From contig JALOLA010000006.1 in the NCBI GenBank assembly GCA_025456205.1, forward strand, positions 1 to 64,000: a stretch of DNA of 64,000 nt, read 5' to 3'. The translations under genes and the position numbers were made by a program. The stretch is from Acidobacteriota bacterium (lineage in GTDB: Bacteria > Acidobacteriota > Aminicenantia > UBA2199). Under the pieces are notes generated by a model. The model saw only the letters and a list, made by a program, of their open reading frames with translations, was not told the DNA's origin and ran no database searches. Below, in pieces: positions 41,040 through 42,697 of this stretch (position 1 is the stretch's first letter; the number at the start of each line of letters is the position of its first letter).

Positions 41040-41381
41040 CTACTTGACCGTGTAGTTGCCCCACTTGACGAAGAAGAGGATGAGGTCGATGAGCAGGACG
41101 TAGATGACCAGGGATTCCATCAGGGCCAGGGCGATGATCAGCAGGCCGCGGATGGAGTCGGCCGAGGCCGGGTTGCGGGCGATGTTGTCCGAGGCGGTGC
41201 AGAACGCCTTGGACTGGCCGAGGATGCCGACAATGGCGGCCACGGTCAGGCAGACGCTGCCGATGAGGATGGTCCAGAAGAACAGCGACGTCACGGGCAT
41301 GGTCTTGTCCGGGCTCTGGGCCGGCAGCGCCGCCGTCAGGGCGAGCAGTCCGGCGATGAGCAGCAGGGTTTTTTTACTCAT
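41040..41381 (-). CDS. atpE: ATP synthase F0 subunit c, with signal peptide and Na+-binding signature
   Basis: Ring subunit of the F0 rotor. The 113-residue protein is longer than usual because it begins with a signal-like sequence (MSKKTLLLIAGLLALTAALPAQS). Two hydrophobic helices flank the polar loop NIARNPAS. Ion-binding residues are Gln56, Glu89, Ser90 and Tyr94. Gln and Glu are 33 apart and Tyr follows Glu by 5, the spacing of Gln32/Glu65/Ser66/Tyr70 in the sodium-dependent Ilyobacter c subunit. The glycine-rich helix-1 motif is weak (VAAIVGILGQS). AAGGAG lies upstream. Confidence 0.93.
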   Translation of the reverse strand: MSKKTLLLIAGLLALTAALPAQSPDKTMPVTSLFFWTILIGSVCLTVAAIVGILGQSKAFCTASDNIARNPASADSIRGLLIIALALMESLVIYVLLIDLILFFVKWGNYTVK

Positions 41382-41400: not shown

Positions 41401-42114
41401 TTAGTGTTCCGAAGCGATGGCGCCGGCCAGGTAGACCGACGACAGCATGATAAATATGTACGCTTGCAGAAGGGAAGTGAAGATGGCCATGGCCATCATG
41501 GGCAGCGGCGCCACGAAAGGGACCAGCGACACGATGATGATGATCACCAGGTCCTCGCCGAAGATGTTGCAGAATAGACGGACGGTCAGGGACATGGGGC
41601 GGGAGAAGTGCGAGATGAACTCAATGGGGAAAAAAAGCCAGCTCAGCCACCATTTCGGACCGGCGAAGGTCTTCAGGTAGCCGAAAAAACCGTGCTTTTT
41701 CACGCCCTGGGCGTGGTAGTAGAGGAAAATGAAGATGGCGCATCCGGCCGGGACGTTCAGGTTGGCCGTGGGCGAGGCCATCTCCGGCAGCAGCCCCAGC
41801 AGGTTGCAGGAGGCGATGAACAGGCCCAGCGTGCCCAGCACCGGGATGAACTTTCGGCCCTCGTGGCCGATCATGTCGTCGACGGTGGAGCGGAAGAAAA
41901 GATAGATCGACTCCAGCATGGCCTGCATCCTGGCCGGGAACAGCGACAGGTTCTTGACGGTCAGCTTGAAGAACAGCACCAGGGCCAGGGTGGCGATGAA
42001 GGCCATGATGACATGGGCCGGCAGGGGGTCGCCATGGACGCGGATGCCGGCGAGGCCGGCAACCGAGCGCAGCAGCCCGTTGATCCAGACGGCGAACAGC
42101 GGGTTATGTTCCAT
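41401..42114 (-). CDS. atpB: ATP synthase F0 subunit a
   Basis: Stator subunit that forms the ion half-channels next to the c ring. The 237-residue protein has five or six hydrophobic helices, SRPMSLTVRLFCNIFGEDLV with the essential arginine, and LQAYIFIMLSSVYLAGAI at the C-terminus. It is followed after 19 nt by atpE and overlaps the 3' end of the interrupted atpI frame by 11 nt. Confidence 0.95.
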   Translation of the reverse strand: MEHNPLFAVWINGLLRSVAGLAGIRVHGDPLPAHVIMAFIATLALVLFFKLTVKNLSLFPARMQAMLESIYLFFRSTVDDMIGHEGRKFIPVLGTLGLFIASCNLLGLLPEMASPTANLNVPAGCAIFIFLYYHAQGVKKHGFFGYLKTFAGPKWWLSWLFFPIEFISHFSRPMSLTVRLFCNIFGEDLVIIIIVSLVPFVAPLPMMAMAIFTSLLQAYIFIMLSSVYLAGAIASEH

Positions 42115-42489
42115 GACGGCCGCTGCCCGGCATCTGCCGCAGGCCGGCGCTGACGATGCCCAGGTAGATCATCGACAGTCCCTGGATGAGGAAGAGGACG
42201 CCCTTCCCGGCCACGAGGCTGGCAGCGAAAAAGATCCCGGCGATGACCAGGAGTTTTGCCAAGCCCGTCATGAAGAACATCGTTTTTCCCTTGCCTTTTT
42301 CCAGGATCCGCTCAGCCTGCCGTACCAGTACGTGAAAACCAGCGATACCGGCGGCGGCGCCGGCAAGGGAAATTATACAATACTTGGCGTTTTTTGTAAA
42401 AAAAAAATAAGCAGCAGCGCCAGCGCCTCGGCGATGACCGTGTCGCGGACGATGCCGGCGGGCAGGCCGCGGCTATTTTTTTCCGTCAT
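42104..42489 (-). pseudogene. atpI: atpI (ATP synthase subunit I) interrupted at a T10 homopolymer
   Basis: Not in the ORF track. From ATG 42489 the frame reads MTEKNSRGLPAGIVRDTVIA, EALALLLIFF and then runs into a tract of ten Ts and stops 8 codons later (TAA). Shifting -1 at the tract (equal to eleven Ts) restores an open frame to 42104: TKNAKYCIISLAGAAAGIAG, EKGKGKTMFFMTGLAKLLVI and a final GLRQMPGSGRHGT, a four-helix AtpI-like protein of ~128 residues. The zero frame at the tract is U UUU UUA. It could be a programmed shift, phase variation, a true mutation or a sequencing indel. Confidence 0.75.
42372..42400 (-). promoter_or_regulatory. Strong promoter-like sequence inside atpI, ahead of atpB
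   Basis: On the minus strand TTTACA (42400-42395), 17-bp spacer, TATAAT (42377-42372). It lies just after the T10 tract. If used, it would drive atpB-atpE with a leader of about 250 nt. Confidence 0.6.
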
Positions 42490-42697
42490 GGCGTCTCGTC
42501 TGCGCGAACAGGTTGTAAAAACCGGCCAGGATGCCGTAGAGGATGAAGGCCATGGTGAGCCAGGGATCGGTCTTCAGCCAGCGGTCCAGGAAATGGCCGA
42601 TGACGAAGCCGACCACGATGGAGGCGGGGAACATCAGGCCGACCGAGGAGTATTCCAGCCATTTGCTCCTGCCTTCCTTCAGGGGTGGGGCGGCCAC
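42473..42697 (-). CDS. atpZ: AtpZ/'gene 1' F0F1-ATPase accessory protein
   Basis: A 74-residue two-helix membrane protein: YSSVGLMFPASIVVGFVIGH, FLDRWLKTDPWLTM, FILYGILAGFYNLF. It fits the small F0F1_ATPase gene1 family (AtpZ/AtpQ), which sits next to AtpI/AtpR and is thought to help c-ring assembly or Mg2+/Ca2+ entry. It overlaps atpI by 17 nt. First gene of the atpZ-I-B-E cluster. Confidence 0.85.
   Translation of the reverse strand: MAAPPLKEGRSKWLEYSSVGLMFPASIVVGFVIGHFLDRWLKTDPWLTMAFILYGILAGFYNLFAQTRRHDGKK

Follow-up and report, generated by a model that had tools for sequence, protein, structure and literature searches.

Most known cases of homopolymer-dependent recoding come from insertion sequences, dnaX, secretion genes and endosymbionts. 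In Citrobacter rodentium tssM1, an A11 tract is associated with about 20–25% transcriptional slippage (PMC4256274), and a shift direction that is unconserved among orthologues is treated as a sign of transcriptional realignment (PMC3711429, section 10). For −1 ribosomal frameshifting in Escherichia coli, the set of heptamers picked because they exceed 0.1% in the absence of a stimulator includes U_UUU_UUU and U_UUU_UUC but not U_UUU_UUA (PMC4066793). The E. coli promoters atpBp1 and atpBp2 lie downstream of atpIp and before atpB (Nielsen 1984, as cited in PMC9277811). Here we describe two housekeeping genes, atpI and rnpA, in which homopolymer recoding appears to be fixed within one Aminicenantes family.

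The split atpI and its T10 tract

The window, a 64,000-nt stretch of an Acidobacteriota genome (contig JALOLA010000006.1, positions 1 to 64,000), carries a split atpI on its minus strand, flanked by atpZ on the 5′ side and atpB on the 3′ side. The original prediction, which placed a hidden atpI between these two genes, broken at a T10 tract with a −1 offset, is borne out in all its elements; it named no strand, and we assign this and all features below to the minus strand. Upstream, atpZ (AtpZ/ATPase_gene1; 42473..42697; PF09527, E = 2.3e-17) overlaps the start of atpI with its 3′ end. The zero frame of atpI (42373..42489) opens at the ATG at 42489, encodes hydrophobic helix 1, runs through the T10 tract (42398..42407) and an 8-codon tail, and ends at the TAA at 42375-42373; read from 42489 to 42373, it translates to MTEKNSRGLPAGIVRDTVIAEALALLLIFFLQKTPSIV* (38 residues). 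The second part lies in the −1 frame (42104..42408) and encodes helices 2–4 from the tract to the TAA at 42106-42104, a stop that overlaps the start of atpB at 42114. Downstream follow atpB (F0 subunit a; 41401..42114; PF00119, E = 5.4e-51) and atpE (F0 subunit c; 41040..41381; PF00137, E = 6.2e-7), giving the order atpZ–atpI–atpB–atpE, in which a small membrane protein is encoded directly before atpB, the position expected of atpI. The intact AtpI of relatives aligns end to end with the two atpI parts joined. PF03899 (ATP synthase I chain) matches the fused window protein weakly, with an E value of 0.011 that falls below the cut-off, and is matched by the AtpI of nine of the 11 relatives (best 9e-9). 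Separately, the subunit c encoded at window positions 41040-41381 has a hydrophobic, signal-like N-terminal extension; the sequence ALMESLVIY of its second helix may resemble that of Na+-binding c subunits.

The genome set, whose assemblies are draft and mostly incomplete, includes 16 species of the genus, and the atpI locus is present in 14. The two species without it, G008 and G012, and likewise G032, also lack atpB, so the locus is probably unassembled there. Tract length in related genomes had been put forward as a check on the original prediction, and nine of the 14 species (G000, G001, G002, G003, G004, G005, G009, G014 and G015) carry exactly T10 with the same −1 offset, followed by the base triplet ACA or GCA. 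The gene is intact in the other five. Two of these are close relatives of T10 species, G010 with T11 and G007 with the interrupted 11-base tract TTTTTGTTTTT (T5-G-T5), both in frame; G006 and G013 carry T7 and G011 an interrupted run, all likewise in frame. T10 is the state of nine of the 11 species that group together, and neither T9 nor T12 was found in atpI. In the atpB tree, whose supports are moderate, G014 is sister to G010+G007 and the other eight T10 species form a second group, a placement that requires at least two changes of tract state. The tract is able to change, yet is held at ten in the remaining species.

Homopolymers of this length are mutable, and the constant length therefore suggests selection on the tract, although the T10 species are related rather than independent samples and we attach no P value to the conservation. 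Runs of T10 or A10 are rare in this genome (eight in 2.59 Mb). In atpB of the nine T10 species, the 179 Phe codons include 25 TTT, and each of the 15 invariant Phe columns has another codon in at least one species, whereas the tract codons are TTT in all nine; judged by this comparison, codon usage does not account for the purity of the tract. Other genes of the same genomes, for example mtaB-like and lpxL-like genes, hold T10 tracts with the frame intact, so T10 alone is no proof of use. Several species have these in-frame tracts in common (YFFFDN in the mtaB-like gene and VFFLKK in the lpxL-like gene); if T10 slips, some of the transcripts of both genes would be out of frame.

This distribution bears on two explanations that the original prediction had listed as options. 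Homopolymers are error-prone and the assemblies are drafts, which would favour a sequencing or assembly error; an identical length in the genomes of nine species excludes it, other T10 tracts of the same genomes leave their genes in frame, and we give this explanation practically no weight. Phase variation, with replication slippage alternating the gene between T10 (off) and T11 (on), could draw on the in-frame T11 of G010. Against it, nine species have exactly T10, with no T9 or T12 and hence none of the free length variation expected of such a switch, and the essential rnpA, described below, is in frame in none of 28 genomes; we regard phase variation as very improbable.

Selection on the two frames and a candidate promoter at their junction

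The second frame of atpI is 291 nt long in all 14 species and free of indels. Measured by pN/pS, a simple count on sequences of biased codon usage, the stretch separating the tract from the first conserved ATG (29 codons, counted after the promoter codons described below) gave 0.31 (0.16–0.50) in the −1 frame and 1.57 (about 1.6) in the other two frames, so that purifying selection is confined to the −1 frame; its variable columns fall at codon positions 1, 2 and 3 in the numbers 9, 7 and 24. Over the last 58 codons of atpI, pN/pS was 0.71 in the T10 species against 0.48 in the intact relatives, with overlapping intervals, and 0.24 in atpB; this C-terminal part looks somewhat relaxed.

The upstream part had a pN/pS of 1.21 (0.84–1.74), which by this measure is no purifying selection at the level of residues. 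Nevertheless, the zero-frame start position, the hydropathy of the helix and Glu21, seven codons before the tract codons, are kept in 14 of 14 species. A hydrophobic helix is encoded in the zero frame only, as checked in the nine T10 species, and the single indel in this part, in G004/G005, is 3 nt long and preserves the frame. The start, the invariant Glu, the zero-frame hydrophobicity and the 3-nt indel speak for a translated helix upstream.

We considered how translation might enter the −1 frame. In seven of the nine T10 species, neither ATG, GTG nor TTG occurs in this frame between the upstream stop and the first conserved ATG (+93/+96), on which ground an internal start was rejected; in the remaining two, the sole candidate is a TTG, located +39 or +48 relative to the ATA codon. 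Read-through out of atpZ, a gene lying in the same −1 frame, was also rejected, the intervening 21 codons being basic and proline-rich and encoding no helix. In the seven species, the only ways into the stretch between tract and ATG are therefore across the tract or from a non-standard start codon, and the latter is unlikely. Given the conserved T10 and offset, together with purifying selection restricted to the −1 frame, trans-frame AtpI is very probably made.

A candidate sigma70-type promoter, which the original prediction missed, overlaps the tract within the gene and reads toward atpB (42372..42400). The site, TTTACA-N17-TATAAT at 42400-42372, has 11 of 12 consensus matches and is the sole promoter-like site within 4 kb; its −35 box opens with the last three T of the tract, and in the T10 species the zero-frame stop TAA sits inside TATAAT. 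TTKACA-N17-TATAAT occurs 19 times in this genome, against no occurrence of the reversed control. Each of the 29 family members examined (14 from the genus, 15 from elsewhere in the family) has TATAAT at the same codons of atpI, and in 27 of them a −35-like hexamer matches at 4/6 positions or more; the 15 sites from other genera were located through the TATAAT motif within the matched atpI region, the site having first been seen without the motif. Constraint at the DNA level is evident in the nine T10 species, in which the promoter codons are ATA in 9/9 and TGT in 9/9, as against 4 of 197 Ile codons and 0 of 19 Cys codons in atpB. The site combines −35 and −10 hexamers 17 nt apart, within the 16–18 nt expected of a sigma70-type promoter, with constraint on the DNA. 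The homopolymer is not accounted for by the promoter, which most family members have in the absence of a pure T-tract. As a separate observation, 11 genomes from six other families of the class have a different promoter-like site in atpI, TTGAT(T/A)-N17-TATAAT, located in the third helix and retained even in one locus of 69% GC.

Conservation of the promoter is one of the points in favour of a simpler explanation, according to which atpI consists of two separately translated open reading frames or is decaying, the T-tract being no more than AT-rich sequence at the upstream end of the promoter, and a broken frame being tolerated. Translation of the last 58 codons could begin at the ATG at 42280, and the upstream part, at a pN/pS of about 1.2, is what such a reading would lead one to expect. 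Several results do not sit well with it. No part of the gene is under stronger constraint in the −1 frame than the stretch between tract and ATG, and in seven of nine species an ordinary start codon is missing from that stretch; the 291 nt are free of indels across nine species; and most family members have the promoter while lacking a pure T-tract. Decay, also listed in the original prediction, is further argued against by the exact T10 in nine species, and overall we consider this explanation improbable.

Candidate slippage signals in atpI and a second split gene, rnpA

Two slippery heptamers of the form X XXY YYZ lie in zero-frame phase in the tract: U UUU UUA (42403-42397), found where the original prediction had recognized it, and U UUU UUU (42406-42400). 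A GC-rich hairpin proposed with the former (CCGGCG-CCGC-CGCCGG, about 31 nt downstream of the tract) does exist in this genome, but is unconserved: one of its six pairs forms in one of nine species, covariation is absent, and folding of the region is no more stable than that of shuffled sequences (z = 0.14). It was rejected as a stimulator, and no conserved stimulatory structure was found a few nucleotides downstream of the tract. Two further candidates were also set aside. A stem abutting the tract on its 5′ side, of the type seen in terminators or stem-stimulated slippage, did not outperform shuffled sequences in seven of nine species, and a UACAA/UUGUA stem right after the tract is weak, overlaps the promoter and is broken where TAG precedes TATAAT in family members.

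Another T10 run of this genome lies within rnpA, which encodes the RNase P protein, and the two halves of that gene are in different frames (tract at C62:9039-9048 in G000). Fused, the halves match Ribonuclease_P with an E value of 2.3e-22 over positions 1-107 of 109. All 13 genus species that have the gene carry exactly T10 with the frame broken, nine needing a shift of +1 and four of −1. Across the family, rnpA is out of frame in all 28 parsed genomes, from nine genera, with tracts of T9, T10, T12 or T13; 16 need +1, 12 need −1 and none is in frame (rnpA of G027 was not parsed and is left out of the 28). Outside the family, 24 genomes of the class with an rnpA match give one match without stops. 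rnpA is possibly the more striking case of the two, and what we see in both genes looks like conserved recoding rather than error.

These results bear on programmed −1 ribosomal frameshifting, by which U UUU UUU or U UUU UUA would yield trans-frame AtpI from an mRNA with ten U. Both heptamers are in phase, and the direction in atpI is −1 throughout. A conserved stimulatory structure is missing, however; U_UUU_UUA is outside the E. coli set of unstimulated heptamers (U_UUU_UUU is within it), a heptamer needs fewer than ten T, and rnpA of the same genomes often needs +1. The emphasis that the original prediction placed on heptamer and hairpin is accordingly unsupported, and we think ribosomal frameshifting unlikely. 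The mixture of +1 and −1 requirements among rnpA orthologues fits transcriptional slippage, another option of the original prediction.

We therefore favour, because the shift direction in rnpA changes while the tract stays, slippage of RNA polymerase on T10, and atpI is probably a functional gene recoded in this way. An A/T homopolymer of about nine or more, as expected for transcriptional slippage, lies at the frame junction in nine species (T10), and it coincides with a conserved frame break and a selected trans-frame part. Unconserved direction among orthologues, a sign of such slippage rather than a requirement, is shown by rnpA and not by atpI, where the direction is always −1, a point that, taken alone, fits ribosomal frameshifting. 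Also counting against slippage on the tract, as far as sequence comparison can tell, are the pN/pS of 1.21 upstream, the somewhat relaxed C-terminal 58 codons and the in-frame T10 tracts elsewhere. RNA polymerase slippage and ribosomal frameshifting can act together.

Proposed expression model and comparison with known systems

The case for recoding draws on the conserved T10 and offset, trans-frame selection, the lack of an ordinary alternative start, promoter conservation and the similar arrangement in rnpA; from these features we infer RNA polymerase as the slipping agent, the slippage efficiency, the activity of the promoter and a low-stoichiometry purpose. In the proposed model, RNA polymerase would slip on the T10 tract of atpI and produce a mixture of mRNAs. 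Those with U10 would encode the 38-residue, one-helix peptide, whose stop codon is the TAA of the downstream promoter box, and those with U11 (or U8) would encode full-length, four-helix AtpI, the predicted assembly factor of the F0 c-ring. The promoter just behind the tract would give separate atpB–atpE transcripts that never contain it. Slippage before and a dedicated promoter after the tract would together keep AtpI scarce in comparison with subunits a and c. A helper role in c-ring assembly is described for related AtpI/UncI proteins (PMC9806626), a job that may need few copies.

More tentatively, and with rather less than even confidence, we suggest that poly-T slippage by RNA polymerase has been fixed in the expression of core genes, family-wide in rnpA and in one genus in atpI, so that AtpI and the RNase P protein would be slippage-gated, possibly in a coordinated or condition-dependent manner, with the tract, the F0 promoter and the stop codon that closes the short frame all placed in the same 36 bases. 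If this is right, gene callers would truncate or miss AtpI and the RNase P protein throughout the family, and the atpI site would be a compact case of tract, stop codon, promoter and coding sequence on common bases. A literature search for frameshifts in atpI or rnpA gave nothing relevant, and the portions covered of two main surveys of the recoding field contain no mention of either gene that we could find.

Among described systems, tssM1 resembles atpI in having a homopolymer longer than nine, a short zero-frame product and a full-length product made through one extra base, with both parts belonging to a real gene. It differs in that its run is of A, whereas atpI is another gene with a run of T, conserved across nine species in an uncultured genus and directly adjoined by a promoter, and slippage there is predicted. 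The dnaX genes of Thermus thermophilus and Chlorobium (A9/A10; PMC3711429 and PMC5009743) likewise use a homopolymer in a housekeeping gene to make two products; here, by contrast, the tract is of T, the product is a membrane assembly factor, and the offset of rnpA also changes direction within the family. Homopolymer frameshifts in Blochmannia also leave a gene that is apparently still functional (PMC3017870; Wernegreen 2010), but these are obligate endosymbionts, whereas the surroundings of the present locus have 45–66% GC and this genome has few long A/T runs. In Oenothera chloroplasts, a homopolymer frameshift in another ATP synthase gene, atpB, is corrected by recoding (PMC8254509); that case is a spontaneous mutant with an oligo-A run and is thought to be mainly ribosomal, whereas atpI here represents a fixed natural state. 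Finally, atpBp1 and atpBp2 of E. coli (cited in PMC9277811) offer a parallel as extra promoters that follow the main atpI promoter and precede atpB, whereas the family described here has one near-consensus predicted site, conserved across its members.
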